Assembly: GCA_020055645.1 (NCBI GenBank)
Contig: CM034548.1
Coordinates: 33,096,201 to 33,160,200 of the forward strand
Source: Tomocerus qinae
Lineage: Eukaryota > Arthropoda > Collembola > Entomobryomorpha > Tomoceridae
Length of the DNA: 64,000 nt
Direction: 5' to 3'
Part shown: positions 5,622 to 40,700 of the stretch, piece by piece
Numbering within the stretch: the stretch's first letter is position 1
How the letters are laid out: each line of letters opens with the position of its first letter
The notes under the pieces: generated by a model
Told to the model about the DNA's origin: nothing
The model's database searches: none
Seen by the model: only the letters and a program-made list of their open reading frames with translations
Translations under genes and position numbers: made by a program

Positions 5622-8095
5622 TTAAGCAAGACAGGATGGGTCAAAAACGGCTTTTCTCAAGGCTGCCTTAGCAGCAGATGTTTGGTAACACTCTTCAATA
5701 AAGTCCCTTGGGAAAAAATATTGGCCCACCTCCCCAGTTGGGCAAGGTAGCGGTTCCAGGGCCTTGATGGTCTCCTCGATGTCGTCATACATAATATGAG
5801 TCATTTCCTCCAATTCCTGGATTGAAAAGTTTTTACCTTTCGATTCTCGCAAGGCTTTTACAACGGCGAAAGTCCAGTAGGACTGATATAATTTTATCCC
5901 TGATACCAAAATATGATTTTAATTTTAGTATGTTTATGTTCCTCAATTGAATAAATAGGAAGTGTCTTCCTTACCCAAGTCCGACAACGGTCTCTCAGGA
6001 GTTCCAAGCTGCCCTTCTCTACGGGAAATTTCGTAGCTGATCTGAATCATGAGCATCCCGTACCCATTTTGCTGGTAAGGAGGGAACACCAGGATGCAAG
6101 ACAGATTGTACAATGCCACCTCCGGATCCCTACCCTTTGAGAAGTAAGCTGCAATGCACCACTTGTTGCCTTTCTTTTCACAGAGCACGTAGTAGTAGAA
6201 GTCGTTGACAGTGTACACCGTCTCCTTGTGCTGGATGAACAACTTGCTCACCAGACTAAGATTTTGGCAGAAAATCTTTGCCTTGTTACCTGCCACTTGC
6301 CAAACTGAGACATCATCCTAAAATGTAGTTATAATACAATTTTTTAGTTTTCATAGTTTTATCATATTGTCCTCCAGGAAGGACATTTGGAGTCACATCG
6401 GCTTATCAAACCATGAATAGGTTGATACAATACCGAAATCCTTAATGCCCAATGACATTTGAGATTGGTTGTAAAGATATGCGAAATTCTTGCTCCCAAG
6501 TGTAAACGGCAAGACTAAAACGCCTCATCCTAGAGTGGGCGCCCACCCACCCCATCCTTAGATTAGGTTAGATTATGATAAATTAGAGGTTAGGTTTGTA
6601 GGGTGGTGCGGGGTGGGGTGGGGCACCCTAAGACGAGCCTTTAATCTGGCTGCTGCAAGTGTAAATCCAGAGGCGAATGTAAATAAATGATAGAATACCT
6701 GCTAGGATTAAGCTGTAAGATATAACATAAAGCAATTCCATATTCTAATCATTATTTATTTTGTACACTATTACCAAGTAAATATTGTAGTCTTCACGAA
6801 GGTGGAATTAAAACTTCTCGGTAAAATGAGTGAAAAATATAATCAATAAACGTAGACAATGTTGGAGACATTATGATTGGGATAAAATATAGTTGGAATA
6901 GGACTTACCTTGAGATAGATCTGTGTACCAGGCGGATTTTTCGCTTTACAGTCCCCCAAATGATGGCAAAATGTGCTTGCTTCAAGCATGTACTTGCAAC
7001 AGTATTGGCATACGAACAAATGTTCACTTTTCCCGTACTTGTCCGGATACTTAGAAGGGTACCACGTTTCTATCTCGAACATCCCAAACTGAAGCGTTTC
7101 GATCGTCTTCACAGCAGTGGGTTCCAATTGATACTGATGAAAACATTATTGTGGTTACCAATATATTAAATGCAGCATAAAGACTCTTAGCAGTTTCGGA
7201 ATAGGTGGTATTCATAGGTAAAATATGAAATGGAGAGTAATTGGGGTTCTAACATGCCCAAACTAACTTCTATAGTTATTAATGCCCTAAAAACTACGAG
7301 TTAATTTCTTTGGAAAATCTCCCATAATCTAATAAGATAAATTATTCCTTTCTACTGGTATTGTTATAATAAAGTCCAAATGAAACAAAGAGGTAATCGC
7401 ACTTTGTGTGTCATTACCTGGGAGTTACAACGTTCTGTATTAATATTGCAGGACAAGAACTTTTCAAAATGTAAAATTGTATTGTACTTACATCGCGATC
7501 TTCCTTGTCCAATTTCCTCTTGGGAGGCTCCTTGTTTAGTTGCATTTGCTGTTGGCGCTGTTTCACTGACTCAGAAATGCTTATGCCAAATACTTCCCCC
7601 GTAGCAGAAGTTACGGCAGATTCACTTTCACTTTTAATTCTTTCCGACGTAACCCATTCGTCCAGTCGGGGATCCTCACCATAATAGTGGATGTAGTATT
7701 GATGCCATCCGCCACGTAATCGTCTTCTTTCCACAATTCTTGCTTTTACTGTAGAACAATATTTGAATTGAAATGACATGATGATTGTAACACTGTCATT
7801 TGCTTTATTTTACTTCAATGAAATTGAATAAATACTATAGATATATTAATTACAGAAGATTACGAATATTAGATTCAATAATGAGTTTCTCAAGTAGAAA
7901 GATTTCGAAATACGAGCAAAAGAATTAATACTGTGTACAGGATAGGTAGATTTAGGCCAAGAGTCAAATTCTCAAACTCTCCCTAGTAGAGAAAAAATAT
8001 TCCAGGAAAATGTAATTTAAAATAAATGAATTACCCCACTTTCCTCTTCTCAAAACAAGATATCCCGGACCTACTTTATGCAAAAGCACGTTCAT
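5622..8095 (-). CDS. MYST histone acetyltransferase, KAT8/MOF-like, copy 1
   Basis: Five exons read on the minus strand: 8035-8095, 7492-7748, 6909-7133, 5975-6317, 5622-5899 (1164 nt, 387 aa); phases 1, 0, 0, 1 all match. Domain order: N-terminal chromo-barrel (about 10-60, with DPRLDEWV); C2HC zinc finger C148, C151, H164, C168; MYST acetyltransferase fold. Key residues are present: K212 (autoacetylated lysine position), C255 in NLSCIL, acetyl-CoA loop Q263-QNGYG-268, E289 in TPERPLSD. The FCQNL run resembles KAT8/MOF more than Tip60. The enzyme class acetylates histone H4 and other nuclear proteins. The start was placed by homology with copy 2: the acceptor in CTACAG at 7749-7750 shows that the frame beginning at 7779 is not the true start, and ATG 8095 heads a homologous exon. 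It is shorter and more diverged than typical MOF. A coding upstream exon remains possible. Confidence 0.85.
6512..6657. repeat. GC-rich inverted repeat in an intron of MYST copy 1
   Basis: A left arm from AGACTAAAACGCCTCATCC to CCCACCCACCCC pairs imperfectly with a right arm ending GGTGGGGCACCCTAAGACG and GCCTTTAATCT. The element lies inside the intron 6318-6908. It looks like a small non-autonomous element (MITE). It stands out by its C/G-rich runs in an AT-rich setting. Confidence 0.55.
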
Positions 8096-8396
8096 GTTGT
8101 ACTGAAATGTCCAAAAACAATCTGATTAAATGTAATGTTATTGTGTACTTGTGGAGTATACTATTCAATAATACAGTTTTTCTTCGTACCAATAAAGACG
8201 AAGAAAGTTGTTGAGTTTTGGTTGATCTGTTTTCAGAAAGAAGGAGAAAATATATGAAATATCAAAGTGAAGACCAAATCAAATGGATACTCAATAAAAT
8301 AATGGAGTTATGTTGATATAGTTCAATTAGGTATAGATATGAGATAGAGACTTGAGTAAGTGACTGTGGTAACTCTTTCCAGTGAGTGATGCTTAC

Positions 8397-8443
8397 TCTG
8401 AAGATGGCAAATTCCAAATGCAGAGCATCAAATGGAATACGGG
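8397..8443 (-). other. Putative upstream exon of MYST copy 1
   Basis: On the minus strand a pyrimidine-rich run ends CTACCTAG just before 8443, and the sequence continues to a GTAAGC donor after 8397. The same block (TTGGAATTT and a few bases later GTAAGCATC) occurs upstream of copy 2 near 15378. It joins in frame to the exon holding the ATG at 8095, but no in-frame ATG is visible upstream, so it is more likely 5' UTR than coding. Confidence 0.4.
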
Positions 8444-11164
8444 CTAGGTAGAAATAACATGGCAGGGAAAGAGACGCTTTGACGTATGTGGATATGTATG
8501 GATGAAACGTAGTTCCAAGATCCAAATTACATATTTTTCTAAACCACTACCCACAGATGAGTATGCGTTAACTTTTCATAAGCCAAAACGAAGATTGCTA
8601 TAGAGTGTCTACTTGCCATGATCGTACAAATTTCGATGGAGCCACAGTTAACCAGTACACAAGATTAGATTCAGTTTAATATACATTAACTTGTAATAAC
8701 TTGTATTCCTTATGTTGATACACCTAAAGATCTACGGTTGGTAATGCTACTGCTTAATGCGTTGTCTCATAGTTTTTGGGGCGGAGATACTGTTGTCTGA
8801 ATAGCCTATACGACGAAGGAAAAGTATTATGTAAGCTAAAAGCTTCAATATGTTTGGCACAGCGGATTGCAAATATACATTTATATTTGCCTCTACATAT
8901 ATTTTCAATAGCTCTGTTCATTAGTTATGGTAGATATGCATTTGATCCTTTCGATTCGTAGAAAAAGTATTGTATATCATAAACAAACGACTTACGTGAT
9001 GTCTGAGAAACTAATAACTAATCTTTTTCACTTTACAATCTACATCTTCATTATGCTTTTTAGGAAAAACGTATCATTCCTATTATTTACACGATTTCCA
9101 GTGTATACTATAACTTAAAACAAACTTCTATGGCAAAAGATATAAATCCATGACTATCTTTACCTTTATTAGTTACACTAATAATGAATCTACTAGCATT
9201 GTCATCAACAGAATGCAGTGATGCATCTAGTAAAACAAATGAGTGCATGATCAAACGATGTTAGGATGTATTTTAGAGCTAATGCTATCCTAATTTTCTT
9301 TAAAGTACACGGCGGTTTCCTTATTATCATTTTTAACAATTGTCCGATGTCCCCCAATGATTGTATGTTTTGCTGTAAAAATGATTGCGTATAGAAAAGA
9401 TGTCGAGTGAGTGAATCATATAATAAATGTATTAGGATGGAAAAAATAGATCTTTGTCTGTAATGCTATGGATATATCTCATAGAGCGTCTGGAAAATCA
9501 GACATATCGAAACGGTGCTAGGGTGCGACCGAAACAAAACGGAATCGAATTACATTATATAAAGTACATCTACGGAGACTGCCAATTGAGACATAATAAT
9601 ACAACATCGTGGTGGGATTGAAAGAATTGTCAGGAATCAGCAATACTAATAATGGCATTAGAATTTCACCCTATTCCATTACCATCTGTATAATGAGTAC
9701 ATGATACTGACGAACGGCGACGCGACGACAGGTGCTCTTTGTATATGTAATGCTCAAGTCGTCCTATAATTATTTCATCATGTACCTAGGTATTCCTAGT
9801 ATAAAGAAATAGATCCTTTCATCAACTCTCTGAAAGAGCAACAGACATATGTAATTGTCAAATGATCTCTGAAAAATGCTTACATAAGTTTCGTTATCGT
9901 TAAATATGTCCTGAGTGAGAAAAACAAAAGCGTCAAATGTCACATTATTATGTCTACGGCGTCATTGGTCATTGTATAAGACCTGAAGTTACTTAAGCGT
10001 ACTTACCTATTGTATTGTGTCAGCTCTCTTGTTGCGAATAATGTGTCTCCACTTCTTAGGATCTGTAGAATAGACGATTTAGGTACAAACAAATGAAAAG
10101 TCCTATATACAAATGTATTTACAGACACAGCAGTGCTACGATTCTTTTATCGGTTCGTCGTTTTACAAAATGTCATATTTGATTGTGTTATATAACCTCC
10201 TGCATTGAAACCCCACTTGTGTTTACATAAAATTGGCAATTATGGTGAACTGCGGCTACCCCAGATCAGTTACATATGACGTTAAAGTATCGATCCTGTA
10301 TTTGACATTTTATCATAACTTAATACCATGTATGTAAATGCAACAGTGAATACCTGACAGTTTTGTTGAGAATATCTAGTCAACAACTTTTACGAATGTT
10401 TTCAGTTGTCACGACTTACATCAATCCATATGAATATGCAACTCTAAATCTATATGATCTTATATAGTTAATAAGCTATATAACTTATAATGAGGTCATA
10501 TTTATGATAAAAACGAACCTATACTTTTGAATGTTATGTACAAAGACAATATCTTGCATGCAAATGCTAGATGGTTGAGGGAGGGCGTGCAATAGAGCTC
10601 GAGACTTTCCCGTAATCTATAATTTCAACCCTCTTGCTCTCGCTTTTGAAGTTTGCTGCAAACTTTTGTTCAATTTTAAGCCTTTTGTATTCATTCTCCG
10701 TTGGATTTTTATGCTTTTGTTAATTTTCTAAGAAACATGTGATTGTTGAAAATACATACTTATGAAACTAACTATCTTCATCATTCACTTTTAAAGCATT
10801 CTTTTTATTTTCTTTCAATGAAATTTACACGTAAATGCAATGGAATCATGAGACCGCATATTTTCATGTATATCTACATATTAATATTACACACACAAAT
10901 CATGCTCATATACTTTTGAAGTACAGATTCAATATTTATATCCAAAGACAATCGTCTTGCATGATAATATCATCATTTTTCCACTTCTACTTTCTCCATT
11001 TCCACTTTTTACATAGGAGATACAACATTACGTAAATATCATTTCGCACAAATACATTTTTCACTACAATTGACTACGAATTCATCTCGTCGACATCTCT
11101 GATGTTTATAGATGGACGTTTAAGCTTAAGCCAGGATCTTCGGCTTTCATCAACTTTTTCCCAC
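8444..11164. other. Spacer between the two MYST genes
   Basis: AT-rich DNA with no recognisable gene. It must hold the promoter of copy 1 and the 3' UTR of copy 2; a minus-strand AATAAA at 10803-10808 lies about 360 bases after the copy 2 stop. Short open frames at 8776-9118 and 10835-11035 show no family features. Confidence 0.45.
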
Positions 11165-14100
11165 TTAGGGAAGGGAGATAGAGGTGGCGAGTCGTCGGCG
11201 TAAGCCAGGGCCGTTGTTGACCCAAATAAAGTGGCGTTGGTCAAACATGATTTTCCAGTGATTAGACTCCTCGTCCAGTTTCTTGAAGTACTCATCGATG
11301 ATAGCAATGTCCAAGAAGAAACAGCCATATCTGCCACGGCAAGTTTTCGGTTCTATCAAATTCATAGCGGTGAGAACATCTTCTTGGGCAATAAAGGTCT
11401 TTGCGGACAATTGAGCCACTGTAAAGCATTTGCCATTAGCTTCTTTCATCACCTTCAGAATTGCGTAGACCCAGTATGCAACGTAGGATCTCTGTCCTAA
11501 AATGGGAATAGTACCTTTTAGTTACTCATTTCGCTAATTATAATATCCAGAAGAATTTTCCTAACCTAAGATTGACAACGGCTTCTCCGGTCTTCCAACT
11601 CTTCCTTCTCGTTTGGACATTTCATAACTCATTTGAATCATGAAAGCTCCAATTCCCCTTTTACGATAATGGGGGAATGTAAGGAGGCTCGACAAGTTGT
11701 GATGTCTAAAGTGTTTATCCTTCGAGAAGTAGGCAGCGATAGCCCACTTGTCACCTTTTGCCTCACAGACCACGTAGTAGTAGAAGAACTGGGTCGAGTA
11801 CACCATTCCCTTGTTTTTAATAAACAACTTGCTCACCAGACCGAGATTTTGGCAGAATGTCCTTTCCGCTTCTCCATCAACTTCCCAAACTCCGATATTG
11901 TCCTTAAATCCCAGTAAGTAGATTCCGCATTAATAAAATTAGTATAACTAAATTGTTTAGCTTTTAAAGTTCTTCCAATCCTTCTCCAGACAATCTCCCA
12001 AACCTTGTCTCAACAGTAGCTACTTACGATTCTTACAGATAGTGGACAAGCTTATACTCAATTGTGTAGCTATCTATATAACTCTCTGCGACAAAATAGA
12101 TTTCCTCTTCTTGCTTTCACAATCCAAGTGACCAATTTGCATGACTTTGTACAATAATATATTTCGACTAGAAAAGAAATGAAATTATGGCTGGCAAAAA
12201 CATTTTCTTTATTCGTATGAATATGCAAATCTTTTGCCGGTCTAGTGATGCCCTGCTACTTCATTAGATTACGTTCCTTTCTATTTCTTTCTAATTCCTT
12301 TACCAGTTTTCTACATTTAAGTAAGTATGATACTACTCAACATAATTTCTGTGATAGGAATGGCTAAAAATATATTTGTATTACAGTACACGCATAGGAA
12401 CTACTTCATCCCGAATTCTTGTTAGAATAGTTGTAAATTAACCCTAAGCCCACAATGCAATGCTACTACATGAACATGCGTAAAAATAATTTGGCTCTTG
12501 AAATAAGGAAAACGATCAAATTATTGGTCATTTAAAAATCGTAAATCTGCTAGTAGAAAGCCCTGAATCATAGTAATACAGGAAATACGAGATATTAACC
12601 TATGTTGACAAATATTCTTTATCCCCTACTATTATTGCAAAGTATGGATGTATTGGACTTGTCAGAATTGAATAAACTTTTACTTTACACTGGAGCAATA
12701 CATTTCAGTATGAGAGTAAGTAGTAGCATTAGATCTAGGTAGATAGTATTTCTTGTATCATTTTCCCCCACATAACTCCTAAGTATTTCAATCATCACAT
12801 CTTCGATTTCGATACTAACAATGAGCCGAGACTGTTTTCAGAAGCGTGTATGTTCTATACTGTATCACTATATATATCGGTATAACTAAAGTAGCTCTTC
12901 GGTTATTTATTTGGTTACAAACTTCTTTATACTTCCTATTGGTAAACAAAACCTTACCATTAATAGTTATTTGATCTAAACAAGGTATAAGCAAATAGCA
13001 ACAATAAGAAATGACAGTTTTATGTCTGCTATTCGTTCAGCATCTCAAATTTGGTTTTGGTTTCACACAATATCAGAACATCTCAAACTGTCAAACGTCA
13101 AGATTTGATAATGCGTGTGGGATGTGGGGAATATGATACAAGAAGTACAACAATCAGTCAATGTGTATGTGTAGGCCTATGCATTCTTTGTTAGCGTTAA
13201 ACTTGACAATTACGACAAGTTCAATAAATGTATGCTTCGCAATAGTACTAGGGGATAACAGTAATAAGTACTTTTGTCATTCATAGTCTACGAGGTATAA
13301 TGTCTCCGTACCGTAAAAAATCTACCTGACAAGTTACCATAAACCCAAACATGGAATATTGGTAACCGAGAATTTTTTATCATTGCGTTCAATTCTTGTT
13401 TGGAGTAGTACATATTTAACTGCCTGAATTTAAAGTTTAATCATCTCAGGCTTCACTGCAATTGAAATTCGAAAACTTGACTAAAGTTAAATGTTACATG
13501 TATAATACAAATCTCTTTCTTTTCTGGACCCAATGTCAATGTAGCAGTTTTAGTATATTAGTATGAAGCGTAGAATGGTGCGTATTACATTGTAGCAATG
13601 CTATATACCCGGTCATGTCTGCCTGTGTGATTTCTGGTTGCGTTAGTAGTGCTTCATTCCAAACAGGAGATTGAGGGGATGCCCTCGCATAATGCACAAC
13701 AGAGTTGAATGAAAGCACTACCTGTTTGCCCAATCCTTCAAACAATGCTTTCTTTTCTACTTTCTACGACTATGAGCTGTGCATGCTGCAAACAATACTT
13801 TCTATTTACTGCAACTACCAGCTCTGCATTAGTGTGTTATCTTACATTATTGTATATATAAATGCACACTAAAGGAATTAATGTTTTCACTTATGTACCC
13901 CAAATCATACCTTTGTACGTAGATTGTAGTACATGAAGGTATGCGTTGGGGTAAGTGAAAACGTTAATTGCTAATTTATGAGATTATGATCCTTCACTAA
14001 ATGTTGATATGATATTTATAAGCAGAGTTTCTAAGAGTTGATTCAATGGTTCACGCTAGACATTTGCCTCTTCGAGATACTACTAGTATGATAGACATGC

Positions 14101-15032
14101 AATTTAATTGGAAAATAGGATAGAGTATTAGCACAAGCTTACAGTCTAAATAAGCATGCAAAAAGTTTTTTTTTGGCAAATTACTTAGAAGGACTTGGAT
14201 TACTTAATTCTCAATACAGCAAGCCAAACTACTTAATAAAAAGGGAATATGTATTTACCTTGTGATAGACAGCAATGCCAGGAGGGTGTCTAACTGTACA
14301 GGTAGCCCGATGGAGACAATACGATCTCCTGTAGATCACATATTTGCAGCAGTATTCGCACACGTAAAGATGATCAGATCTTCCGTAGGGGTCGACATAT
14401 TTCGACGGATACCAAGTGACCAAGTCATTCATGCCAAATTGAACTGAGTCAACGGCCCTTTCTTTGAAAACCAGTGCCTAATCCAAAAATAATTAATTAA
14501 TATTCGAAAATGGAAAATTTCCAACCCCTTTACCCCGATTGAGTCAATGCCTGCTGAGAATATGGGTTTGTTCGTCTGAGCCGGAGCTCCTTCGCGATTT
14601 CTTCGTTCTTCTGCCGTCGCTGTAAATGGCTCACCGCTTCACAAATGCTCACACCTGATGAACGACGTTGAGAAGTTGTCTCTTTTCTGATGAATGGAAG
14701 TTTCCTAATTTTGTCGGCAGTAACCCATTCGTCATACCGAGAACTCAAGTTGGCATAATGAACCCGATATAGTGGCCAGTTTGTTTGGACCATCTGAAGG
14801 TTATGAATTTCCGCTGGAACTGCAAAACAATGTTGCTATTGAATATCTTTGTTACCTTTGTCCTGCCTAATTAGTATGACCACCCGAGGGAAAAACAATT
14901 GCAGCAATAATGCCTTTTAGTGGCATTGCTCAAATGATATTTGCCGTAAACACCCTTATTTGATAAATTTAACTTACCCCATGTTTGGTTCTTCAAAACT
15001 TGGTAATTTGGACCAACGTCGTGCATTTCCAT
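11165..15032 (-). CDS. MYST histone acetyltransferase-like, copy 2 (diverged; junction uncertain)
   Basis: Minus-strand exons: 14978-15032, about 14534-14819, about 14259-14477, 11566-11902, 11165-11496. Splice positions match copy 1 exactly at three of four introns. The product of about 402 aa has a chromo-barrel (SSRYDEWVTADKI), C2HC finger (C147, C150, H163, C167), the K211 position, an R260-KRGIG-265 cofactor loop and E286. The conserved active-site Cys is Ser252 (NLSSLL), and PLSDLG has become PLSILG. The exon 2/3 junction is problematic: the best GT donor (after 14534) is phase 2 but the homologous acceptor (exon from 14477) is phase 0. An in-frame product needs either an acceptor at 14458-14459 (exon from 14457) or a GC donor after 14551. 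It may be a working diverged paralog, a weakened enzyme, or an early pseudogene. Otherwise the frame is open throughout, which favours a used gene. Confidence 0.72.
13876..13969. repeat. Short hairpin element in an intron of MYST copy 2
   Basis: The left arm AATTAATGTTTTCACTTA, then CCCCAAATCATACCTT, pairs with the right arm AAGGTATGCGTTGGGG, then TAAGTGAAAACGTTAATT. Arms are about 40 nt with a small loop. Non-coding, MITE-like, within the 2.4-kb intron 11903-14258. The rest of that intron shows nothing I recognise. Confidence 0.6.
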
Positions 15033-37700: not shown

Positions 37701-40700
37701 GAACTGTAGAAACGTTGGCAGGTACTGTCGAGCCGGAGGGTGCATTTATCTGTAGATTAAGACTCTTAATTATTATCCTTTTCTTTTTAATCGTTTGGAA
37801 TTTTAACTAATACGAGAATCGGTGCAACTTACCTGATCATTAGAGGTGACCGCACCAGGATTCGATTGCTGGCTATTTTTCACATATTGCTCAGCGGATC
37901 TATTAGCAAACACATGACATTTTAATTACAAAAACAATCTGAAGACCTTTTAAAACAATGGGTGGTTAACTTTTTTTAAACACTTACTTCAGTTCTTCTA
38001 AGGTAACTCCCTGTGTAGATCGTCTCGTCTCCCTGACACGTTTCGCATGAGCTTTACGTTGCGTTTCTGACTCCTCATCACGAGCTGGAGGGACGAAAGA
38101 TCTGTAAATCAAATCAAACATTAATAAATCTCTTGTAAATATCATACTCAATTGGTTGTGCAAAATAAAAGTGCTGCTACATTCAAATGGCATGCATCAT
38201 TTTATTACTATTGTATTTACTACGACTATCAAAAATATTTACTACACTACTATTGCATAACACTTTAATATTTGTATTCATATATTTCCATCAGTAGTAA
38301 ACTAAAGTTTACAAACACTCTAAAATTAATGTTCTACCACGGTTAGTAAAAAGATGAGAAAATTAGGAAATTTTGAAATCACAAATTATAGAAATTAGAC
38401 TACGGTTTTAATTAAGCATCATGCTAAACCATGGGTCATCAACATCTACTGGAGAGTGACGTTACTACCGTCGGACGTCGACAGTTTTGTGCAAAAAAAA
38501 TGGGAAAGTGCAAATTCTTCGATCAAACTTCTCATTTCAGGCAAGTGCAGAGGCAAACGAAATTTGTGAATGTTTTAGTTTTTATAATTTGAGGAGAAGA
38601 CGCACTTGAAAAGAAATTGTTTGAATTTGGAGACAGGGCCAATCTTCGTTCCTCCCGGAGTGGATGGCGACAAACTTCCACTTTCTCCACTACGAATTCC
38701 ATGGTTTTAGGGCAGACATAATGCATAGATACGGATAAGATACGTATAATGCGTAACGTTGAAAGTAGACCCCACCACAAGCAAGAGTCACAAAAAGCAA
38801 TAAAGACACCAACACCTTTATTAGCTCGTGTGAAATCACTAAGCCCTTATGTACCCATTAGCTAACGTTATTGTTAAGATTATCAATACCAATGTATCAG
38901 ATCAATATTTCATTATTCCGAAAAGTAACGACACATTGAGTTACGTTTACGATTTCGAAACCAGAGACAGTATCAACACATCTCCTTGAGCACGAAGTTT
39001 GGTACAATACTCTTATCGAAAAGTGAATTTAGAGAATATAGTCATTTTGGTCATCTCTTAAACATTGCTTTAAAGCATTTTTAAGATTAAATATATCAAA
39101 CCCTGCATTAAAAAAGTTGGCTGAATTTAAAAAAATAATTTCTCGATATAGAAATGCTAACTATAGTTACCAACTTTTAGAAGATTTTAGTACGGTATTG
39201 AATAGTTGACTATAATTATTTAAAATTATAATAATTATAGCTCATATCACAGCGTCGATGTTTTCTTAATGTCCTTTTCAAAATCACCCGCAGCAAGCCA
39301 GTAAAATATTTTCCCAACAACAACACAATCAATGGATACATATACACCAAATTGCAGAACGGACATATAACACAAAACAGTTTGTTTGAGCCAAAACGAC
39401 TTGACCTAACCAGAGTTAGTTGAGTTTAGAAGTGTCACGAAACTAGTTAGCTGTCGAACAAGTTATTATACGACCTTGTTCGATGAATAGGAAAGATGTT
39501 AAGTCGCTCCTTTCAATTTTTCCCCTACTTCCTCTATCAGGGGATTACTGTAACCTATTCAGTAGTGTTACAAAACATGTCAGCTGTCAATGAAACTTTT
39601 ACACGGCTTTGTACGATAAATATAAACTCAGTTACGTTGATTTTCAGTTATTTTCAGTTTTTCACCCACTTCCCCTATCAGGGGATGATTGTAACCTATT
39701 TAAAAGTGCGGTAAAACATGTCAGCTGTCGAACAAGCCTTTACACGACGTTGTACAATGAGTAAAACAAAAGTTATGGCGATTTTTAATTTTTTTAAAAA
39801 TTTTGAACCCATCCCCTAGTCAGGGTGTGCTACCGACCTTGCCTATTTAAGAACTTCTTACTTTTTATTTGAAAAAGCTACCCTGAAAATTTGAACAGTC
39901 TAGCTGAAGCCATTCCAAAGTTATCCTGCAGAGGGATTTCAAGACAGACAGACAGGCAAAGCACTACCATATCAGCTGTTCATTCACCAAAAATGCCCGT
40001 TTGGGCAGGTACCGAAACAATGTACTAAACATCGAATTTTCGGATTAAATTCATATTCACGGGCATTTTTGGCGAGTGAACAGCTGGTGGTAGTGCTTTT
40101 CGTTACAGTATATTATACGTACATCCATTTAATGTGTTGTTGTCAGGCAAATGTTTTGCTAGCCCGTTGGTGATTTCGAAAAGGTCTCGTACAATATCAC
40201 AATTAGATTTATTGAAATAAATTATAAAAATAAACTAAATTCCCATTATTAATATTCATTCGATAAGAAATCGTTGTTATCTATGAAGTTAGCAAACGAC
40301 CCATACAAGTTAAGTAATAAGTTACGATGGATCCGTCGAAAACATCAAAAAATAATAAATTATTATAATTTTGTCAAGAAAAATTTGAACTAGCGTTGGC
40401 GGGAAGAATTTTACCTTCTCATTTGAACGGCGTTATTATTAGCAATATTTCCGACCGATCTGTTTTGAGGACTGGAAGAACCAATAGTATTTGGTCGGGG
40501 TGATCTAGCAGAATCAGTGTCTTTCCTGAAATTGAATAAAGGAGCAAACATGCAGGTTCAAATAATCAAAATAAATCACACAGGTTCATTTCAAATGTGC
40601 ATCATCATCGTCCCATAACAAATAAACAATAAATAATGCAATATCAGAAAATTATTAAACGAGTTTTGAAAAATTATTTAACTCCACAGTTAATATTGTC

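Follow-up and report, generated by a model that had tools for sequence, protein, structure and literature searches.

Two MOF-like MYST acetyltransferase genes, referred to here as A and B, lie side by side on the minus strand of the window, i.e. the whole 64,000-nucleotide stretch of DNA that was analysed (G000:C3:33096201-33160200, 35% GC, in a genome assembly of 334.4 Mb and 115 contigs). They are old, heavily altered copies of MOF, retained in addition to a normal MOF on another contig. It is fairly likely that they are lineage-specific MOF/KAT8 paralogs, with A probably active and B weakened or non-catalytic. MOF, as a rule a conserved gene, is linked with the acetylation of H4K16, binds MSL1/NSL1 and, in flies, takes part in dosage compensation. 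A tandem, same-strand pair of this kind had been proposed in the first-pass annotation of the sequence and was recovered at the positions given below. Both genes were modelled with introns that have GT-AG borders in all cases (8/8, four per gene).

Gene A, 5622..8095, minus strand: MOF-like MYST acetyltransferase, 5 coding exons, 387 aa
A exon 1, 8035..8095, minus strand: start codon and start of the chromo-barrel, ending after W in phase 1
A exon 2, 7492..7748, minus strand: remaining chromo-barrel (Pfam Tudor-knot) and linker
A exon 3, 6909..7133, minus strand: MYST C2HC zinc finger
A exon 4, 5975..6317, minus strand: catalytic core with Cys, acetyl-CoA loop QQNGYG and Glu (E350)
A catalytic Cys codon (human C316), 6096-6098, minus strand: in exon 4
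A exon 5, 5622..5899, minus strand: C-terminal part of the MYST domain and stop codon
Gene B, 11165..15032, minus strand: MOF-like MYST paralog, 5 coding exons, 402 aa
B exon 1, 14978..15032, minus strand: start codon and start of the chromo-barrel
B exon 2, 14534..14819, minus strand: remaining chromo-barrel and linker, with a phase 2 donor
B exon 3, 14259..14457, minus strand: zinc finger, this start assuming the in-frame acceptor
B exon 4, 11566..11902, minus strand: catalytic core, Ser replacing the catalytic Cys, Glu conserved
B Ser codon at the catalytic Cys position, 11687-11689, minus strand: in exon 4
B exon 5, 11165..11496, minus strand: C-terminal part of the MYST domain and stop codon

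The Pfam domains Tudor-knot, zf-MYST and MOZ_SAS all scored above cut-off in the final models of both genes, which therefore possess the combination of MOZ_SAS catalytic domain and MYST zinc finger that was taken to identify a MYST acetyltransferase. MOZ_SAS was matched with 205.1 bits (E 9e-61) in A and 187.1 bits (E 3e-55) in B (cut-off 32.2), zf-MYST with 66.3 and 47.1 bits, respectively (cut-off 28.8), and Tudor-knot with 44.8 and 27.5 bits (cut-off 20.8). The Tudor-knot of B was the weakest of these matches and reached 21.6 bits in a hand-joined model without exon 1.

A search of the genome with the MOZ_SAS family gave at least 18 exon-level matches, which represent eight genes according to the tree described below and to tblastn searches whose queries were human KAT7, human KAT8 and gene A. 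Besides A and B these are:

MOF1, C4:23.227 Mb: canonical MOF
MOF2, C3:4.479 Mb: second MOF-like gene
KAT7, C2:58.35 Mb
KAT5, C5:4.654 Mb
KAT6, C1:100.742 Mb (L014 2136-3125)
KAT6-like, C1:100.733 Mb (L013 1226-2258): diverged neighbour of KAT6

All 25 of the matches listed for the A protein against the genome (E up to 0.01) fell within the eight known MYST loci. In the window and the preceding 20 kb, tblastn at E up to 1 with the proteins of A, B, MOF1 and MOF2 gave no matches besides A and B. Over the MYST region MOF1 is 82.0% identical to human KAT8, MOF2 69.1%, A 42.1% and B 38.7%. The expectation that a canonical MOF would be present elsewhere was thus borne out by the whole-genome search in the form of MOF1 on contig C4, and under the best explanation the normal MOF job remains with this gene. 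The absence of a long N-terminal extension from A and B, which had also been remarked upon, holds in the present models: 7 residues in A and 5 in B precede the barrel, compared with acidic stretches of 67 residues in MOF1 and 129 in MOF2. The 129 acidic residues ahead of the chromo-barrel of MOF2 (C3:4.478 Mb; L010 5834-7922) contain many EQDL/EPDL repeats. A further tandem MYST pair was seen on C1, where the normal KAT6 lies next to the diverged KAT6-like gene.

The gene structure of A and B corresponds to that of the genome's KAT8-type genes. Four junctions are common to A and B and recur in MOF1 and MOF2. In all four genes the barrel is interrupted directly after one and the same Trp, and a phase 1 intron falls within the Gly codon of PLSDLG (in B, PLSILG). 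An intron at FS|Y is present in the genome's own KAT5, KAT6 and KAT7 and in none of A, B, MOF1 and MOF2, and KAT5, KAT6 and KAT7 read through DLG (ELG in KAT6) without an intron. KAT7 has an intron near the junction of finger and core, which is 4 nt off and in another phase. The introns common to A, B, MOF1 and MOF2 imply a duplication at the DNA level and not retroposition. The earlier claim that A and B share splice positions therefore stands for all four junctions, except that the second differs in phase, its donor being phase 2 in B and phase 0 in A, MOF1 and MOF2. Of the two acceptors considered for B intron 2, the one that looks better by eye, TTAG|GCA, would shift the reading frame; an intact frame requires the weaker-looking GAAAG|GGCC, 20 nt downstream of it. 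This mismatch may reflect real splicing that is tolerated or the beginnings of decay, or a run of G may have been misassembled.

The two copies differ widely from each other. Amino-acid identity between A and B in the MYST region was 45%, and over 377 codons pN was 0.378 and pS 0.735. The Jukes-Cantor dS of about 2.9 is saturated, for which reason no pairwise dN/dS ratio is given for A and B. At fourfold sites 17/53 were identical, and blastn between two 7.5 kb regions gave only two stretches matching at E < 0.001, both of which were coding. Internal stops were found in 0/387 codons of A and 0/402 of B, where base-shuffled sequences had means of 23.1 and 22.3, respectively. The divergence of A and B is old, and amino-acid change has been held below synonymous change. 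Saturated synonymous change in combination with open frames and a lower pN indicates that both have long been preserved as proteins. The relaxed or altered selection suggested by the first-pass annotation is accepted only in part: change has been fast, but open frames and a pN of 0.378 against a pS of 0.735 show that selection was not simply relaxed. Recent relaxation in A or B would be invisible in a comparison of this pair without close relatives.

On the basis of ten other MYST rows, from which the KAT6-like sequence was omitted, 65 columns were defined as MYST-invariant. A retains 39 and B 40 of these residues, and 22/65 are changed in both, including R325 of the acetyl-CoA loop (Q in A, K in B) and several of LDHKTLYxDVxPF. 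In leave-one-out controls the numbers retained were 65/65 for MOF1, 65/71 for MOF2, 65/71 for KAT7, 65/66 for KAT6 and 65/67 for KAT5, and the KAT6-like row keeps 53/65. Because so few of the invariant residues are kept and 22 are lost in both, activity may have been lost in A as well as in B. Both genes retain the zinc ligands as well as the [QR]xxGxG loop. The alignment also places a retained K274, the autoacetylation site, in A and B, and an Ile at the position of D355 in B. The catalytic Glu (human KAT8 E350) is kept in both (TPERPL in A, RPEKPL in B). The equivalent of C316 is present in A (NLSCIL) and is replaced by Ser in B (NLSSLL, C316S). PMC7830570 names C316 and E350 as the pair of residues that is essential in human KAT8.

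The ancestry of A and B was further examined in a mixture-model tree of 13 rows, in which the drawn root is merely the midpoint. A and B were sisters (support 100/100) and, together with MOF1, MOF2 and human KAT8, were split from the eight KAT5/6/7 rows with support of 97/99, albeit with long branches. The possibility that the two copies belong to different MYST subfamilies is contradicted by this tree, in which they fall into the same one. Branch lengths (changes per column) were 1.13 for the A/B stem, 0.54 for A and 0.99 for B, against 0.058 for MOF1, in agreement with the earlier impression that the pair evolves faster than is usual for MOF. B and the KAT6-like row were flagged as long branches. 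That A and B instead represent an ancient MYST subfamily of their own, placed near KAT8 through long-branch effects, would fit with the very long stem and with the similarity of A over shared columns, which is about equal to human KAT8 (42.1%), human KAT6A (42.1%) and the genome's own KAT6 (44.3%), the KAT6 rows being shorter fragments. When A and B were moved to the three KAT6 rows, the single alternative tried, the tree was 15.55 log units worse with a p-AU of 0.048. The KAT6 placement is only just rejected and, with branches of this length, the exact placement of A and B is uncertain. Given the long stem and this barely rejected alternative, the tree by itself is not conclusive for ancestry. 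Gene structure, however, is independent evidence: both intron characters that divide the KAT8-type genes from KAT5/6/7 put A and B with MOF, the split of the N-terminal barrel agrees with that of MOF1 and MOF2, and the support on the KAT8 side points the same way. A separate ancient subfamily is accordingly considered very improbable. Still more remote is an assembly artefact, for instance two haplotypes placed side by side. The tandem arrangement on one strand is what such an error would give, but its probability is practically negligible in view of the low identity of the MYST regions, the non-coding DNA that hardly aligns and the saturation at synonymous sites.

A more serious competitor, although it is clearly the less probable reading, is that A is a working paralog and B a decaying or non-catalytic copy (a pseudoenzyme or young pseudogene). 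It is in line with the Ser and the Ile at the two positions mentioned above, with the longer branch of B and with the out-of-phase donor and better acceptor of its second intron. According to PMC2988783, the activity of Drosophila MOF is reduced about 5 to 8 times in the mutants C680A and E714Q. On the other hand, B is otherwise open over 402 codons, has GT-AG introns and is constrained relative to A, and its phase mismatch lies at a G run where the assembly could be in error. The same paper reports that the role of the Cys in Esa1 is disputed, one in-vitro study having found it not essential; the mutants described in the paper carry Ala, not Ser. As C680A is about 5-8 times less active and the role of the Esa1 Cys is disputed, B may retain some activity. 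B is a homolog by descent and is not claimed to be a standard active enzyme.

The preferred reading, lineage-specific paralogs of MOF with A probably active, could have come about as follows. A MOF gene would have been copied at the DNA level, introns included, and the resulting copy would have evolved fast and lost its acidic N-terminal tail, unless it never had one. A second, tandem duplication would then have given rise to A and B. The expected fold of each still comprises a chromo-barrel, a zinc finger and a MYST domain. A would most likely bind acetyl-CoA and acetylate lysine by the usual Cys/Glu mechanism, possibly on altered targets. B, with Ser for Cys and the Glu kept, would most likely be weak or act as a binding or competing partner. 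More tentatively, the pair might found a fast-evolving MOF-derived subfamily, perhaps springtail-wide, with one copy lacking the Cys and a restricted role (e.g. germline or sex-biased) separate from MSL/NSL.

In comparison with KAT8/MOF (MYST1, including MOF1), A and B share the chromo-barrel, the C2HC finger, the MYST domain, the catalytic Glu and, in the comparison with MOF1 and MOF2, four intron positions, and are 42% and 39% identical, respectively, to human KAT8 in the MYST region. The catalytic Cys is shared by A, whereas B has Ser instead. Both are without the acidic N-terminal tail and have about 40% of the MYST-invariant residues replaced. Drosophila Myst5/CG1894 is close to MOF and testis-expressed. 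It is likewise an extra MYST gene, tabulated as the fifth with Mof, Tip60, Enok and Chameau in PMC8068152, and is likened to A and B by this listing, not by sequence. In the unrelated lineage of the annelid D. gyrociliatus, lineage-specific kat8 duplicates are mentioned in PMC12153100, so that KAT8 duplicated within one lineage, as here, is already known from another animal. The present case seems unusual in how far the copies have changed, in that one member of a tandem pair has lost its catalytic Cys, and in the presence of three extra MOF-like genes in a single genome. This genome, in which a canonical and a moderately diverged MOF coexist with a tandem pair of strongly changed copies, one lacking the catalytic Cys, offers a natural test of which MYST residues are dispensable, and of whether MOF duplicates acquire sex- or tissue-specific work.

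Some features apart from the MYST genes were also observed. An apparently intact, full-length copy of mitochondrial COX1 lies inside the chromosome-sized contig C1 (36.671 Mb; L043 1471-2871), and partial copies occur near C1:139 Mb, on C81 and on C11. The full-length copy on C1 looks like a collembolan sequence, and the host is accordingly treated as a probable springtail. A mealybug origin, which would have pointed to a connection with paternal genome elimination, had been considered in view of five large contigs and the GC content of the window, but the bacterial bioB gene that mealybugs would be expected to carry gave a single match of 33.3 bits, far below the cut-off of 225. Within the window, open reading frames at 30280-52610 (minus strand) look like exons belonging to a putative gene for a myosin phosphatase targeting subunit (MYPT/Mbs). 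Their ankyrin match is just over the cut-off and their PRKG1_interact match is under it. A 141-bp unit is present in about two tandem copies at 39511-39825.
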